Shown: piece by piece, positions 10,316 through 27,765 of the stretch
How the letters are laid out: each line of letters starts with the position of its first letter
How positions within the stretch are numbered: the stretch's first letter is position 1
NCBI GenBank assembly: GCA_022824205.1
Contig: JAJEAI010000016.1
Span: 1 to 38,801 of the forward strand
DNA from: Candidatus Binatia bacterium
GTDB lineage: Bacteria > Desulfobacterota > Binatia > UBA9968 > JAJDTQ01
Direction of reading: 5' to 3'
DNA length: 38,801 nt
The notes under the pieces: generated by a model
The model's input: only the letters and a program-made list of their open reading frames with translations
What the model was told of the DNA's origin: nothing
Databases searched by the model: none
Position numbers and translations under genes: made by a program

Positions 10316-10321
10316 AGGAGG
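10316..10321 (+). promoter_or_regulatory. Strong Shine-Dalgarno AGGAGG for the cysteine-rich peptide
   Basis: A perfect AGGAGG lies 9 nt upstream of ATG 10331. It is one of the best ribosome sites in the window. It is the main evidence that this low-complexity reading frame, rather than its shadow frames, is translated. Confidence 0.8.
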
Positions 10322-10330
10322 ACACAACGG

Positions 10331-10576
10331 ATGCAACTCATCGATAGCCCCGTTGGTGAACGGAACCCCATCGCCATCCCATGGCGGCTCGACCCCCGGG
10401 AGGACGAGTTGGACGTGGAAATCCACGGCTGTGGTTGCGGGTGTGGGTCCAATTGCGCGTGCGCGTGTGACTGCGCGTGTGCGTGCGCGTGTAGCTGCGA
10501 CTGTCAATGTGGCGCCTGTGCGTGTTCGAGCTGCGATAGCGGCGCCGAAGCGGATACCGGGAACAGTCTGTCCTGA
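10331..10576 (+). CDS. Cysteine-rich CxCxC peptide, candidate RiPP precursor or metal-binding peptide
   Basis: 81-aa protein in two parts. Residues 1-33 form a cysteine-free, acidic leader-like segment (ending DELDVEIHG). Residues 34-68 hold 16 cysteines at 34, 36, 38, 42, 44, 46, 48, 50, 52, 54, 56, 58, 60, 63, 65 and 68. Between C42 and C60 every second residue is Cys, spaced by Ala, Asp, Ser or Gln. The tail (69-81) is Cys-free. There is no Sec signal and no GG cleavage motif. Genes for a HlyD adaptor and a 2-oxoglutarate oxygenase follow on the same strand, fitting a ribosomally made peptide that is modified and exported. A metallothionein-like metal binder is the main alternative. I know of no named family with this exact pattern. 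Confidence 0.75.
   Translation: MQLIDSPVGERNPIAIPWRLDPREDELDVEIHGCGCGCGSNCACACDCACACACSCDCQCGACACSSCDSGAEADTGNSLS
10430..10534 (+). repeat. Low-complexity TGY-GCG repeat coding the CxCxC core
   Basis: The codons for C34 to C68 alternate TGC/TGT with mostly GCG, giving a near-tandem array of GCGTGC and GCGTGT hexamers. Such arrays are prone to slipped-strand expansion or contraction in multiples of two codons. Core length could therefore vary between strains, and assembly errors are possible. Confidence 0.7.
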
Positions 10577-10597
10577 TCCCGGGACCGCGGTCAGGAC

Positions 10598-10633
10598 GGA
10601 CGGGCAAGTGAACGTGTCGTTTCTTGCCCGTCC
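10598..10633 (+). terminator. Hairpin between the Cys-rich peptide and HlyD genes (possible attenuator)
   Basis: The 11-bp arms 10598-10608 and 10623-10633 pair perfectly (GGACGGGCAAG with CTTGCCCGTCC) around a 14-nt loop. A smaller 7-bp hairpin (10570-10576 with 10591-10597) lies just upstream over the peptide stop codon. There is no U-tract. The position suggests partial termination or an mRNA-stabilising element that would keep the peptide message above that of the downstream genes. Confidence 0.45.
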
Positions 10634-10699
10634 CTTCCGCGACCGGCCTCCGCCATCGCGTACCGCCGCCGAAGGACGACTCTTCCCGGGGACCCGTCG

Positions 10700-12043
10700 A
10701 TGAACAAGACGCATCATACCGACATGCTCCTGCTCGTGGCGTTGTGTGTCTTTCTCGTGGGCACGCTCACGTGGGCCTCGGTGGCGGAGGTGGAGCTGGC
10801 GGCGGTGGCGCCGGGACGCATCGTTCCCACCGGTCAGGTCAAGGTGATCCGCTCCTTCGAGGTTGGGAAGATCCGGCGCATCGCCGTGGAGGAAGGAAGC
10901 CCGGTCCGGCACGACGACGTCCTCATCGAGTTCGACACGACGCTGGTGGACGCCGAAATCTCCAAGCGCACGGCCGAGCTCCAGACCCGGTCGGTGGAGG
11001 CTGCGCGGCTGGAGGCGCTCGTGGCCTGGCGCGAGAACCGGACCTTCCGTCCGCCCAGCGGCGCTCCGCCGGAGATCGTCTCCATCAACGAAGCGCTCCT
11101 GGCGGATCAGATTGCGTCTCACCGCGCGCACCTGCGGGAGCTCGACAACCGCATGGCCGAGCGGCGGGCGCAGATCCGGACCCTGGAGGCCGCCCTGGCC
11201 AAGCATCGCAGGCTGCTGCCCTTCCTGCGTGAGCGAAGCGCCATGCGCGAAACCCTGTACCGCAAGAACCACGGTTCGCGGCTCGCCTTCATCGACGAAC
11301 AGGAACGCCTGGTGGAGATGGAGGGAAACATGGCGTTGCGCCAGCGGGAACTGGACGAGGCCAGGGCGGGGTTGGCGGCGATCCGGTCGCAAAGGCAGAG
11401 GACGGTCTCGGAGTTCTACCGCGAGCGCCGCGCGGCCCTGGCAATGCTACGCGAAAGGATCCTGGTGCTGCGGGAAGACATTCGCCAGGCCCGCGAACTT
11501 CGCGCGCGCCACACCCTGCGCGCTCCGGTGGACGGGGTGGTTCAGGACCTCGCGGTGCATACGGAGGACGGCATGGTGGAGCCCGGCGCCCGGCTCATGG
11601 TGATCGTGCCCCGCGACGCCGGCATCCAGGTGGAGGCCTTCATCGCCAACGCCGACATCGGCTTCGTCAAGCCCGGCCAACGGGTCACGCTCAAGGTGGC
11701 GACCTTCGACTTCCGCCGCTACGGCGCCATCGAGGGGACGGTGCGCCACATCGGCAAGGACGCCGTGAACGCGGGCGCCCAGGACGGAAACTCGGGGTTC
11801 CCGAGCGCGGCGGGCGGCCCGGCGGCCACGTCGGCAGCCGCGACCGGAGCCGCCCAGGGAGGCCCCGCGTTCAAGGCCCTCATCGACCTCGACCAGACCT
11901 ACATGGAAGTGGAGGGCCGGAAGATCGGTCTGTTGCCCGGCATGTCTTCGGAGGCCGCGGTCATACTGGGCAAACAGCGCCTCATCGAATACTTCCTGCA
12001 GCCCCTTCGGGGCTACCGGCAGGACGCATTCCGGGAGAAGTGA
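10700..12043 (+). CDS. HlyD-family periplasmic adaptor (membrane fusion protein)
   Basis: 447-aa adaptor of type I secretion or HlyD-like export systems, linking an inner-membrane transporter to an outer-membrane channel. One N-terminal membrane segment (about 8-27) is followed by a biotinyl-lipoyl half (about 32-72, APGRIVPTGQVKVI...), a long alpha-helical coiled-coil region (roughly 75-275), and the second lipoyl half plus beta-barrel beginning APVDGVVQDL. An Ala/Gly/Ser-rich low-complexity insert lies near 355-390, unusual for the family. It starts 123 bp after the Cys-rich peptide gene and ends 2 bp before the preferred oxygenase start. No ABC transporter or TolC-like protein is in the window, so the transporter partner must be elsewhere. 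Confidence 0.9.
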   Translation: MNKTHHTDMLLLVALCVFLVGTLTWASVAEVELAAVAPGRIVPTGQVKVIRSFEVGKIRRIAVEEGSPVRHDDVLIEFDTTLVDAEISKRTAELQTRSVEAARLEALVAWRENRTFRPPSGAPPEIVSINEALLADQIASHRAHLRELDNRMAERRAQIRTLEAALAKHRRLLPFLRERSAMRETLYRKNHGSRLAFIDEQERLVEMEGNMALRQRELDEARAGLAAIRSQRQRTVSEFYRERRAALAMLRERILVLREDIRQARELRARHTLRAPVDGVVQDLAVHTEDGMVEPGARLMVIVPRDAGIQVEAFIANADIGFVKPGQRVTLKVATFDFRRYGAIEGTVRHIGKDAVNAGAQDGNSGFPSAAGGPAATSAAATGAAQGGPAFKALIDLDQTYMEVEGRKIGLLPGMSSEAAVILGKQRLIEYFLQPLRGYRQDAFREK

Positions 12044-12045
12044 GA

Positions 12046-13038
12046 ATGCTCCACGATACGATTGCCTTTTCCACCGATTCAAGCACGCGAGAGTTCCCGC
12101 GGGCATCCGACCCCGCGGCCTGGACGCCGGCCGACCTCGGACGGTCGCCCGGGTGGTTGCATGATTTCACGCCGAACGAACTGACGGAGTTGTCGGCGCT
12201 GTCCCGGGCCGCCCGTCGAGGCGAATCCGCCTCGGTGCCGGATGGTTCCTTCCTGGCCTGGCAGATGGCGCGCACCGGGCGGGAGCTGCGATCGGGCGTG
12301 GGTGTCCGGATCCTGCGCGGGCTGCCGGTTGAGGCGACGACGCCACGGGAGGCGGGCATGGCGTTCATGGCTCTGAGCCGGCGTCTGGGCGAGCCCATGG
12401 AACAGTCCAGAGGGGTCACCCTCGCACACGTGCGCGCGGACGAGGAAAACAATCCGCAGGGTCTGGGGTTCCGTGCGGCCGGGACCCTTCCCTTCCACGC
12501 CGACCTCGAAGACGTGATCGGGTTTCTGTGCCTGCGCGCCGCCCGTTGCGGCGGCACGCGGCGGTTCGCCAGCGCGGCCACGGTCTACAACATCCTGGCG
12601 ACCGACCATCCGGATCAACTGCGCGTTCTCACCCGCCCCTTCCACGTGGCGCTGCAGCAGCCTCATCCGGACCACGGGCATTCCTGGACCCGGCTGCCGT
12701 TCGTCAGCGTCCGCGACGGCGTCTTCAACGCCTGCGCCTATCCGGTACACATCAAGCGCGCGCAGAGACTCACCGGGGTCCCCGCGTTGACCGCGGCGCA
12801 GAGTCGGGCACTGGAGGTCTTCAACCAGGTGGCGGACCGAGTGGCGGTTTCACTGGAGCTTCGGCCCGGGGACTTCGAGTACTTCAACAACCACGTGGTG
12901 CTGCATTCGCGCACGCGGTTCACCGGCGACGGCTCCCAGCGCCATCTCCTGAGAGTCTGGCTCTCCATGGCGGACTTCAGGCCCCTCGACCCGGAACATC
13001 CGATACGTCTCCGGCGCCGTCCTTCCGTCAGTCGTTGA
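12046..13038 (+). CDS. TauD/TfdA-like Fe(II)/2-oxoglutarate-dependent oxygenase
   Basis: 330-aa member of the clavaminate synthase/TauD fold. The iron-binding facial triad is visible: H151 and D153 in PFHADLEDV, and distal H287 in NNHVVLHSRTRF; R303 in LLRVWLS fits the 2-oxoglutarate-binding arginine. Such enzymes hydroxylate, desaturate or halogenate small molecules and amino-acid side chains. ATG 12046 has GGGAG 8 nt upstream. GTG 12040 would overlap the HlyD stop as GTGA but has poor spacing. Tight coupling to the HlyD gene and nearness to the Cys-rich peptide suggest it may tailor that peptide; this is inference. Its 3' end overlaps the convergent eutA by 11 bp. Confidence 0.87.
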   Translation: MLHDTIAFSTDSSTREFPRASDPAAWTPADLGRSPGWLHDFTPNELTELSALSRAARRGESASVPDGSFLAWQMARTGRELRSGVGVRILRGLPVEATTPREAGMAFMALSRRLGEPMEQSRGVTLAHVRADEENNPQGLGFRAAGTLPFHADLEDVIGFLCLRAARCGGTRRFASAATVYNILATDHPDQLRVLTRPFHVALQQPHPDHGHSWTRLPFVSVRDGVFNACAYPVHIKRAQRLTGVPALTAAQSRALEVFNQVADRVAVSLELRPGDFEYFNNHVVLHSRTRFTGDGSQRHLLRVWLSMADFRPLDPEHPIRLRRRPSVSR

Positions 13039-23992: not shown

Positions 23993-24919
23993 ATGGCAGA
24001 ACGCACGGCATACGTCAACGGCGAGTTCTTGCCCGAGAGTCGGGCGAGCGTTTCCATCTACGACCGGGGTTTCCTGTCCGGCTTGGGCGTGTTCGAGCGG
24101 ACGCGGACCTTCGGCGGCGAGATCTTTCAACTGGACCGGCACATCGCGCGCCTGTACCGCTCGCTCAAGGCGGTGCGGCTGGATGCCGGCCTCACCGCGG
24201 ACGAGATGCACGAGACCACCGTGGAGTTGGTGAAGCAGAACAAGGGGCTGCTGGGAGCGGACGAGGACTACTTCGTGGGCCACTACGTCACCCGCGGGCC
24301 GGACAAGGCGGGCCGGGCGACCGTGGTGATCCTGTGCGAACCCATCGGTTTCGACAAGTTCGCCCACCACTACATCTACGGCGGCCACGTCATCACCACG
24401 CACATCCGCGCCATCCCCACCCAGGTGTGGGACCCGAAGATCAAGAGCACCAGCCGGATGCACCTGTGGCTGGCGGAGCAACAGGCCCAGTTGGTGGACC
24501 CCGAGGCCTATGCCCTGCTGCTGACCCTCGACGGCAACGTCACCGAGCTCACCGCGGCCAACTTCTGGATCGTGCGCAACGGCACGCTGGTCACCGCGCC
24601 GGTCCAGACCATCCTGTCGGGGGTCACGCGGGGCGCGGTACTGGAGATCGCCCGGCACCTCGACATCCCGGTGGACGAGACCAACTTCCAGTTGTACGAC
24701 ATCATGAACGCCGACGAAGCGTTCATGACCACCACCTCACGCTGCGTGCTGCCGCTCACCCGCATTAACGGCAACGCCATCGGCGACGGCAAGCCCGGCC
24801 CCATGGTGGGCAGGCTGCAAAAAGGCTGGACCGAGGTGTTCGGACAGGACTTCGTCGTCCAGGCGCTCAAGCACATCGACAAGGACAAGGTGCCGGAGGG
24901 CGAGGCGGTACCCCTGTAG
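23993..24919 (+). CDS. Class IV (fold-type IV) PLP-dependent aminotransferase, branched-chain type
   Basis: 308-aa PLP enzyme related to branched-chain amino-acid aminotransferase, 4-amino-4-deoxychorismate lyase and D-amino-acid transaminase. The opening YVNGEFLPESRASVSIYDRGFLSG is typical. Catalytic K151 lies in DPKIKSTSRMHLWLAE, and E185 in TELTAANFW matches the cofactor-ring-contacting glutamate. ATG 23993 was chosen because AGGGAG lies 6 nt upstream; the in-frame ATG at 23939 has none. It stands alone between the antitoxin region and a convergent LLM gene. The three fold-type IV activities cannot be told apart safely from sequence; branched-chain transaminase is the default. Confidence 0.87.
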   Translation: MAERTAYVNGEFLPESRASVSIYDRGFLSGLGVFERTRTFGGEIFQLDRHIARLYRSLKAVRLDAGLTADEMHETTVELVKQNKGLLGADEDYFVGHYVTRGPDKAGRATVVILCEPIGFDKFAHHYIYGGHVITTHIRAIPTQVWDPKIKSTSRMHLWLAEQQAQLVDPEAYALLLTLDGNVTELTAANFWIVRNGTLVTAPVQTILSGVTRGAVLEIARHLDIPVDETNFQLYDIMNADEAFMTTTSRCVLPLTRINGNAIGDGKPGPMVGRLQKGWTEVFGQDFVVQALKHIDKDKVPEGEAVPL

Positions 24920-25026: not shown

Positions 25027-26034
25027 TCAGCGAGCCGCCGCGCGGCCCAACGTCCGCAGCGCGGATTCCCTGTCCGCGCCGTAGACGTTGACGATGAGCT
25101 GGCTGAGGCCTTCGACGGCTTCCAGCTCCGCGATCTTCCGGGCACAGTCGCCGGGCGTGCCCACGAGAGTCATCTCCCGAAAGAGATCGTCGCCCAGCGC
25201 CGACCGGAGGGCGCACGCCAAGTCATACTCGTGGTCCTGGCGCGTGGCCTCCTCGCGCACGTGCGCGCCCATCTCGGGTGACAGCAAGGGCTCCCGCGCC
25301 CCGAGCACCTCGTGGGGAATCCGCAGCGCGGCCTTGAACAGGGTGCGGCCGACCTCGGGCGCCAGGGCGTCCATGGCCTGCTCCGTGGTCTCGGCCACGA
25401 CGCAGTGGGTCCAGGCGCAAATGCAGAGCGCATCCGGATCGCGTCCGGCCCGCGCCGCTCCCTCGCGGATTTTCCCGATGGCGTAGCGCAGGAAGCGCGG
25501 GGACCCGCCCGGGCTGATGATGGCGCCGTCCGCGGCCTCGCCGGCGAACGCGAACGTGCGCGGCCTTTCCGCCGCCAGCAGGAGCGGCGGCTTGGTCTCG
25601 GGCACCGCGGGAAGCCGCAGCCGGCGGCCGTTGTAGGGCACGCTCTCGCCCCGGAGGAGACCCTGCACGAGTTTCACGCTCTCCCTGAACGCATCGAACC
25701 GAGACGGCTTCCGCCCAAGGAACTTCACGGCGCTGTCGCCGAGCCCGAGACCGAACTTGACCCGGCCTCCGGTGAGGATGGCGAGGGTGGCGAAGCTGTT
25801 GGCCACCACCGTGGGGTCGCGGGTCTGCAGATTGGTGACCGCCAACCCCACCATCGCGCGTGAAGTGGCCATGGCGCAGTACGGCATGGACACGTACGGC
25901 TCGGCGCAGCGCGGCGAATCGTACAGCCAGACGTGGTTGAAACCGGCGTCCTCCGCCTGGCGCGAATGCGCCGCCAGCATGGACGGATGGCGCGCGCGCA
26001 GGCCCAAGCCGAGATCCAGACCTCCGTTTCCCAT
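25027..26034 (-). CDS. LLM-class flavin-dependent oxidoreductase
   Basis: 335-aa luciferase-like TIM-barrel enzyme using FMN or F420. Typical blocks are visible: the N-terminal LDLGLGLRARHP, the HSRQAEDAGFNHVWLYD helix-strand, LAILTGGRVKFGLGLGDS, and the PPLLLAAERPRTFAFAGEAADG segment common to the methylene-tetrahydromethanopterin-reductase-like branch. ATG 26034 has GGGGAGGGG 3 nt upstream; the in-frame ATG 26079 adds 15 unlikely residues. It is downstream of the sulfatase gene on the same strand (135-bp gap). Substrate and flavin type cannot be decided here. Confidence 0.9.
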   Translation of the reverse strand: MGNGGLDLGLGLRARHPSMLAAHSRQAEDAGFNHVWLYDSPRCAEPYVSMPYCAMATSRAMVGLAVTNLQTRDPTVVANSFATLAILTGGRVKFGLGLGDSAVKFLGRKPSRFDAFRESVKLVQGLLRGESVPYNGRRLRLPAVPETKPPLLLAAERPRTFAFAGEAADGAIISPGGSPRFLRYAIGKIREGAARAGRDPDALCICAWTHCVVAETTEQAMDALAPEVGRTLFKAALRIPHEVLGAREPLLSPEMGAHVREEATRQDHEYDLACALRSALGDDLFREMTLVGTPGDCARKIAELEAVEGLSQLIVNVYGADRESALRTLGRAAAR

Positions 26035-26169
26035 GATCCCCTCCCCGTCGAGCCCTGGCCGCGAGCCCGTGCCGGGCAAGGCCCGGAAGGTTCCTCCCCC
26101 GGTCCCGGCGTGGTGTCTCGCAAAACACGCGAATCAAATGACGCGAATCAGCCGGACACCACACCAGGA

Positions 26170-27765
26170 CTACGGTCCGTGGTGCGTGGCCAGGGGACTC
26201 GTGTCCGTGAGGGCCATCATCCTGCGGGCGAGCGCCTCCAACAACTCGGCCCGTTGGGCGCCGGGCTCGTCCCAGAGGTTGCGCATCTCGTCCGGGTCGT
26301 TGTCGAGGTCGTAGATCTCGCCCCAGCCGGCGCCTTCGTAGAGGGTCAGCCGGCGGTCCGGCGTGATCAGGGTGCGCGCGCGGAAGTTGTTGGGCAGGCC
26401 CATGTAGCCGCGGCGCTGGTGCTCCTCGATGAGCAGCGAGTCATAGCCCGTGGCGCCGCCGTCCATGGCGGGCAGGAGGCCCACCCCCTGCATGCCGTTG
26501 TGCCCCTCCAATCCCGCCCGGTCCAGGATGGTGCTGGGCAGGTCCAGTGTTCCGCACAGCCCTGGATTCACCACCCCCATCGTCGCGGTCGCCGGATCCA
26601 TCCAGATGAACGGCACGCGCACGAGGCCGCGGTAATGAAGCGCGCCCTTGAGCAGAAGCTGGTGGTCGCCCATGAAGTCGCCGTGATCGCTGGTGAAAAT
26701 GATCACCGTGTCCTCGGCGAGCCCCAGTTCCTCGAGCCGCGCCCGGATGCGCCCGATGGCATCGTCGATCATGGTGATCATGCCGTAGGTGAGGGCGATG
26801 GCTTCGCGCACCTCCCTGGCGGTAACGGCGAAGGTGCGCTGCCCGTCGCGCGCGGCCTTGCCTTGGTCGCGCTCCTCGTAGAGCGCGGCCAGATGCGGCA
26901 GCACCGGCTGCTCGCCGTGGTGAAACGAACCCGGCAGGGCGATCTCCTCGGGGTGGTACATGTCCCAGTACCGCCCCGGCGGCGTGAACGCGTGATGCGG
27001 GTCCGGGAACGAGCACTGGAGAAAGAACGGCCGGTCCCGGCCGGAGCGCGTATGTTCCTCCAGGAACGCCATGGTGCGCTCGGCCACGTAGCTCGTGGGA
27101 TAGAGCTCTTCGGGCACGCGCGTGCGCCACGCTTGCGGCGCCTCGCGACCGTCGCCGGGAAGCGCGTGGCTGCGTCCGCGCAGGGAGTCGGGGTCGGGGT
27201 GACGCGCGCGCAGCCAGCGGTCGTAGTGTCCCACCACCTGGTCGGCGTGCTTGATGCACAGTTCCACGTGCTGGAACCCGTAATAGGGAAACACGGGTTC
27301 GAACTCCGGGTCCCGGGCCCAGGTGGAAGGCAGTTCCTGGTCGTAACGCCCGCCGACGTCCTTCCGCGCCTCGCGCAGGTGTTGCGGCGGCCGCGCGCGG
27401 CTCGGGTCCGGCTCCGGCATGCCCACCACCGGGAGGTCGTCCTTGATGCTCTGGAGGTGGCACTTGCCGATGAGCGCCGTGTGGTAGCCGGCGGAGGACA
27501 TGACGTCCGTGAACGTCGTCGCCTCCAGGGAGAGCGGAATGCCGTTGTGCCGCACGCCGTGAAGCGACGGCATGCGCCCGGTCATGAGCGTCGCCCGGTT
27601 GGGCATGCAGATGGGCGTGGCCGTGTAGAACCGCTCGAAGCGGGTGCCGGCCGCCGCGAGGGCGTCGATGTGAGGCGTCCGCACCACCGAATTGCCGTAG
27701 CACCCCAGATGGTCCGCCCGGTGCTGATCCGTGATGATGAAAAGGAAATTGGGTCTGTCGCTCAT
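26170..27765 (-). CDS. Type I sulfatase (alkaline-phosphatase superfamily)
   Basis: 531-aa sulfatase hydrolysing a sulfate ester. The signature C-x-P-x-R is present as CMPNR starting at C53, followed by ATLMTGR, so the cysteine would be converted to formylglycine. Metal ligands are seen at D13/Q14 in FIITDQH and at D360/H361 in TSDHGDFMGDH. There is no signal peptide, so it appears cytoplasmic. GGAG lies just before ATG 27765. It begins 17 bp after the carboxymuconolactone-decarboxylase-like gene, probably in one operon. No formylglycine-generating enzyme or anaerobic maturase is in the window. Phosphonate monoester hydrolases share this fold, so the substrate class is not certain. Confidence 0.92.
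   Translation of the reverse strand: MSDRPNFLFIITDQHRADHLGCYGNSVVRTPHIDALAAAGTRFERFYTATPICMPNRATLMTGRMPSLHGVRHNGIPLSLEATTFTDVMSSAGYHTALIGKCHLQSIKDDLPVVGMPEPDPSRARPPQHLREARKDVGGRYDQELPSTWARDPEFEPVFPYYGFQHVELCIKHADQVVGHYDRWLRARHPDPDSLRGRSHALPGDGREAPQAWRTRVPEELYPTSYVAERTMAFLEEHTRSGRDRPFFLQCSFPDPHHAFTPPGRYWDMYHPEEIALPGSFHHGEQPVLPHLAALYEERDQGKAARDGQRTFAVTAREVREAIALTYGMITMIDDAIGRIRARLEELGLAEDTVIIFTSDHGDFMGDHQLLLKGALHYRGLVRVPFIWMDPATATMGVVNPGLCGTLDLPSTILDRAGLEGHNGMQGVGLLPAMDGGATGYDSLLIEEHQRRGYMGLPNNFRARTLITPDRRLTLYEGAGWGEIYDLDNDPDEMRNLWDEPGAQRAELLEALARRMMALTDTSPLATHHGP

Follow-up and report, generated by a model that had tools for sequence, protein, structure and literature searches.

MNIO enzymes constitute a large and chemically diverse RiPP family, in which the signal-peptide-less branches have been little explored. 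Several described systems come close to the locus analyzed here. Bufferins and Buf_EGKCG-oxazolins (captophorins; BufA-BufB(MNIO)-BufC(DUF2063)) share with it a Cys-rich precursor, an MNIO for which BufB/HvfB are nearest and a DUF2063-type partner; according to a survey of the MNIO landscape, bufferin-type precursors not linked to an MNIO gene also occur (PMC12452194). Pearlins (TglA-TglH-TglI) and PME-type 2 MNIO systems are similar in having a signal-peptide-less precursor, an MNIO and a partner that scores under the DUF2063 cut-off. Methanobactin (MbnA-MbnB-MbnC) resembles it in that an MNIO acts on Cys of a leader-core peptide and the product is an exported copper chelator, and type I secretion (HlyB/HlyD) in combining an HlyD-type adaptor with an HlyB-like ABC exporter. 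Methanobactins, bufferins, oxazolin and fontiphorin are described as Cys-modifying MNIO products that bind copper (PMC12452194, PMC13097082), with up to four Cu bound by fontiphorin (PMC13097082).

Here, we have analyzed a window (the whole stretch of 38,801 nucleotides) from a genome (G000) of an uncultured Binatota genus, together with the other genomes of the same genus (G001-G008). We consider it about 75% probable that the window carries the precursor, adaptor and 2-oxoglutarate oxygenase part of a two-locus MNIO RiPP pathway. The precursor gene (10331-10576, forward strand, as are the other window features below) follows a Shine-Dalgarno sequence AGGAGG (10316-10321), starts with ATG and encodes 81 aa. 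Residues 1-33 (10331-10429) make up an acidic leader without Cys (net charge -5; motif PWxLD...DELDVEIHG). The core, residues 34-68 (10430-10534), consists mostly of C-x repeats and holds 16 Cys, at positions 34, 36, 38, 42, 44, 46, 48, 50, 52, 54, 56, 58, 60, 63, 65 and 68, ten of which (C42-C60) strictly alternate. All of these features of the peptide that had been given in the preliminary description were reproduced from the sequence, and so was the arrangement of precursor, HlyD and TauD-type oxygenase in line on one strand (TIGR01843 and PF02668 for the latter two). The precursor had no match in Pfam or NCBIfam. Its N-terminus is acidic and non-hydrophobic, so that no Sec signal peptide could be recognized by inspection. 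The Cys codons of the core (10430-10534) were mixed (9 TGT and 7 TGC), compared with 113 TGT and 807 TGC in the other predicted genes of the studied loci (Fisher p 4e-5); such mixing may guard against repeat slippage.

A hairpin lies between the precursor gene and hlyD (10598-10633), with an 11-bp GGACGGGCAAG/CTTGCCCGTCC stem extended via a small bulge. It is conserved in three species (window, G003 and G006; z from -2.3 to -3.3), an A-U pair being replaced by G-C in G006. The hairpin is a possible attenuator or mRNA processing site and may set a high precursor-to-enzyme ratio. The HlyD-type periplasmic adaptor (10700-12043) scored 336 bits against the cut-off of 209 for TIGR01843 (type_I_hlyD) and is the only close HlyD of its type in G000. 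The TauD-type Fe(II)/2-oxoglutarate oxygenase ends at 13038. Its ATG at 12046 is indeed 2 bp past the HlyD stop, as had been reported, but comparison of homologs (including L021) suggests a start at GTG 12040, which overlaps that stop. The protein has the TauD domain (PF02668, E 9.5e-31) and a putative HxD...H triad of Fe(II)/2-oxoglutarate oxygenases (H151, D153 and H287, which together with R303 were invariant; numbering from ATG 12046, triad assigned by inspection). The nearest solved structures by sequence, 7N7V and FrbJ (5EQN), reveal no substrate, and an AlphaFold model built from two sequences (pLDDT 32) was left unused.

To what extent the precursor forms a family could be seen from tblastn and profile searches, which yielded 19 intact genes, one to three per genome, in all nine genomes of the genus. 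G000 has two further copies in tandem on contig C115. Additional members are incomplete: G002 keeps a tail remnant and G004 a truncated leader (L096, G004:C1:1007252-1007332), a leader-only precursor cut off before the HGC junction. The family leader is near-invariant (PWxLD...DLDLE[IV]HG), and W18, L20, L27, E30, H32, G33, C34 and G35 were invariant across 14 aligned precursors. The core is a (Cys-x)n chain of variable length, in which x is mostly G, A or S, also D or Q, and Cys is retained (10-19 Cys per precursor); the C-terminal tail is optional, being either absent or acidic/Ala-rich. Thus, the 14-sequence alignment displays the conserved leader and variable core of a RiPP precursor, in agreement with the selection data. 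The window precursor differed from that of G006 by a dN of 0.19 and a dS of 0.75, and dN/dS was ∼0.25 in comparison with both the G006 and G003 orthologs, which argues for a coding gene under purifying selection. Together with the occurrence of homologs throughout the genus, this indicates that the 81-aa frame is no chance ORF. Two side observations concern the surroundings of other family members. In L004 (7860-10026), two MFS genes precede a tandem pair of precursors whose acidic tails are long, and the next gene product shows Sel1-like repeats (by eye); precursors occupy comparable positions in several other genomes. A small hydrophobic protein of ∼150 aa adjoins a precursor in G001 (L023 6524-6970; no Pfam match for this copy) and G004 (L033 8483-8944).

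No precursor homolog was detected in 88 relatives outside the genus, in 394 further genomes sampled from the phylum, or among the viral contigs and plasmids searched. A scan of genome contigs beyond this sample, using one pattern that detects close relatives only, returned a sole true relative, in a Candidatus Binatia MAG (L035). A Rhodospirillales match (L036) was rejected as a family member, the resemblance within the leader being due to chance. TauD orthologs (E<=1e-60) were likewise absent from the 88 relatives, and homologs of the DUF2063-like partner described below from the 394 phylum genomes outside the genus.

The preliminary description had treated HlyD and TauD as an enzyme pair; both proved to be real, but they are a fragment of a larger set whose other members, an MNIO, the partner, an HlyB-like ABC exporter and an SDR, are encoded on another contig. 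This MNIO operon was found in eight of nine genomes, one in each and two in G004, and was absent from G007, whose assembly is 76% complete. In G000 it is located on contig C107 (MNIO 24023-24820, ABC exporter 25825-27609) and has no adaptor gene. In G004, assembled as a single contig, all parts stand in one operon (L030) in the order precursor-MNIO-partner-ABC-HlyD-TauD-SDR; a second operon of this genome (L059) encodes the same enzymes but has no precursor beside it. The seven other genomes with the operon have MNIO-partner-ABC-SDR as one unit without HlyD+TauD. HlyD+TauD of the window type occurs once per genome outside G004, always between GPP34 and EutA, whereas each of the two G004 copies is placed within an MNIO operon, directly after the ABC gene (TauD orthologs thus number two in G004 and one in each other genome). 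The copies of HlyD+TauD and MNIO correspond in number, 1:1 in general and 2:2 in G004. The two loci are 62 kb apart in G001 (an assembly of 4 contigs) and ∼75 kb apart on one contig of G002. It should be noted that the complete G004 cluster (L030 8560-14977) adjoins a phage-type terminase large subunit, a DNA methyltransferase and a transposase and may therefore be mobile. Immediately upstream of its MNIO operon, L056 (5537-7727) encodes a sulfur-transport protein (PF04143) as well as a DUF6282 protein, both of which recur in most genomes. The MNIO of G011 and G017, members of the same order, was set aside as a counterpart; it is a different MNIO (∼30% identity), and its neighborhood lacks any related precursor, partner or exporter.

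With regard to the precursors, only one of the 19 adjoins an MNIO gene. Linkage to a modifying enzyme is given by this L030 case and by genus-wide co-occurrence, the MNIO of the window precursor being on another contig. The earlier proposal was to be judged by whether HlyD+TauD homologs have a Cys-rich neighbor, and the outcome was divided: an intact precursor adjoins them in G000, G001, G003, G006 and G007, all at the GPP34-EutA locus, but not in G005, G008 and G002. No precursor is present at this locus in G005 and G008, which retain one elsewhere in the genome, and only the C-terminal tail remnant is left in G002, where HlyD appears frameshifted beside it (L077 8340-11259). The GPP34-EutA locus of G004 contains a precursor without HlyD+TauD. 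Since there is generally one HlyD+TauD per genome for up to three precursors, and no adjacent intact precursor in the three genomes above, HlyD+TauD is not specific to a particular precursor.

The G000 MNIO, a member of the MbnB/TglH/BufB superfamily, was identified by PF05114 (247 bits compared with a curated cut-off of 25; E 2e-73) and retains the motifs of 3BWW and TglH; its PDB matches were 3BWW, TglH (8HCI) and MbnB. The best NCBIfam models, BufB (201 of 310 bits) and HvfB (186 of 360 bits), were both under the equivalog cut-off. Its identity to bufferin-type MNIOs from the same class is ∼32%, compared with ∼64% among those MNIOs themselves. Because of this low identity and the score under the BufB cut-off, its chemistry may differ from the bufferin type. 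The partner encoded after the MNIO gene matched the DUF2063 HMM weakly (E 0.002-0.04, under the Pfam cut-off) and no PDB sequence, and its DUF2063-like nature was recognized by hhalign against DUF2063 proteins from the same class (local probability 93%, global 95%). These properties are consistent with a kinship to the PME-type 2 proteins that accompany signal-peptide-less precursors according to PMC12452194. The ABC exporter on C107 is closest to the HlyB type (532 bits; HlyB subfamily cut-off 726). Of the N-terminal C39-like region, only a part is kept in G001, G008 and the L030 copy of G004, and the remaining copies have lost it; an intact C39 domain was not found (no C39 match in Pfam), which makes cleavage of the leader by the exporter unlikely.

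Taken together, these data are in line with the earlier suggestion of a RiPP leader-core precursor with export and oxidative tailoring, now linked to an MNIO, its partner and an ABC exporter. Assignment of the system to the MNIO RiPPs has good support, and from it we infer the chemistry and function as follows. The ribosomal precursor, with its conserved acidic leader and (Cys-x)n core, would be bound at the leader by the DUF2063-like partner, which would present its core to the MNIO, an iron enzyme; C107 encodes both proteins. The MNIO would then oxidize several Cys of the core, the most plausible outcome being 5-thiooxazoles like those of bufferins/captophorins. FonB favors a small residue after Cys (PMC13097082), a preference that CG, CA and CS of the present cores satisfy, but the MNIO clade is different. 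TauD from the window and then SDR from C107 could oxidize the peptide a second time, perhaps by hydroxylation and subsequent oxidation of the alcohol. The product, which lacks a Sec signal, would then be exported by the HlyB-like exporter of C107 and the window HlyD, and would probably bind soft metal ions such as Cu(I). Metal binding is the likeliest function by analogy, because several characterized Cys-modifying MNIO products bind copper, and the earlier idea of a metal chelator fits this literature.

Several features favor the two-locus pathway: precursor, partner and TauD all appear restricted to the genus among the sampled relatives, and the near-invariant leader before a variable Cys core, the purifying selection and the conserved precursor-hlyD hairpin point in the same direction. 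Against it stand the weak HMM match of the partner, the divergence of the MNIO, the location of 18 of 19 precursors away from an MNIO gene and the three genomes whose HlyD+TauD lacks an adjacent intact precursor. The dispersed location of most precursors, together with the CxC runs that metallothioneins also have, could instead speak for an unmodified metallothionein-like peptide that holds metal by free thiols while MNIO, HlyD and TauD serve something else. We regard this as unlikely, as the Cys-free leader is invariant at W18, L20, L27, E30, H32 and G33 while the core varies. An invariant leader with a variable core is typical of enzyme recognition and is not known as a metallothionein trait. 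In addition, a precursor heads the complete MNIO-partner-ABC-HlyD-TauD-SDR operon of G004, and precursor, partner and TauD share one genus-limited distribution.

The absence of a neighboring precursor in G005 and G008 also raises the question of whether the precursor is an MNIO substrate but the window HlyD+TauD carry another cargo as chance neighbors. Both genomes still have a precursor elsewhere, however, and this explanation appears quite improbable given that HlyD+TauD directly follows the ABC gene in both G004 MNIO operons, that its copies match those of MNIO in number and that the C107 exporter lacks an adaptor. Even less probable, in our view, is that the Cys are cyclized otherwise (disulfides, thioethers or azoles) by unrecognized enzymes with a minor role for the MNIO; MNIOs are described as chemically diverse (PMC12452194, PMC13097082) and the present clade is divergent, but the Pfam-tested genes at the precursor and MNIO loci included no YcaO, LanM/LanC or radical SAM enzyme, and MNIO was the only recognized RiPP enzyme there. 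YcaO, lanthipeptide and radical-SAM routes were set aside on this basis.

If the two-locus pathway holds, it would join an MNIO with a 2-oxoglutarate oxygenase, an SDR, an HlyB/HlyD-type exporter and poly-(Cys-x) cores of up to 19 Cys. We tentatively suggest, at somewhat short of even odds, that it represents a new class of MNIO RiPPs from Binatota, in which one trans-acting set (MNIO, DUF2063-like partner, TauD and SDR) serves several dispersed precursors to give exported products with consecutive Cys-derived heterocycles and a 2-oxoglutarate-dependent modification. Cluster-based mining would miss most of the precursors because the genes are split over two or more loci, and since the leader is compact and near-invariant, the proposal lends itself to a direct test by co-expression.

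Comparison with the known systems shows where the present one departs from them. Relative to bufferins, the precursor has a (Cys-x)n core rather than EGKCG or DUF2282, the partner is divergent, a dedicated ABC/HlyD exporter, TauD and SDR are added, and no DoxX was seen; membership among bufferins/captophorins is not indicated, either by the MNIO, which is under the BufB/HvfB equivalog cut-offs, or by the precursor, which has no Sec signal peptide by inspection. Unlike the present precursor, TglA of the pearlins is described as a scaffold bearing one appended Cys (PMC9016710). Adjamnio-I, a PME-type 2 MNIO group with 8-21 Cys in 122-293 aa (PMC12452194), could overlap with the present precursors. 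Similarity to MbnB is low (33 bits), MbnC had no match, and the core and accessory genes differ from those of methanobactin. With respect to type I secretion, the ABC protein is under the HlyB subfamily cut-off, its C39-like region is partial or lost and the substrate is apparently a small RiPP. In its main text, the survey of the MNIO landscape (PMC12452194) contains no words beginning with TauD, HlyD, Binatota or CxC, and a full-text search of open-licence papers revealed no matching system. Thus, with a gene combination that had no match in the literature searched, the system appears from its sequences to belong among the known MNIO RiPPs as a variant.
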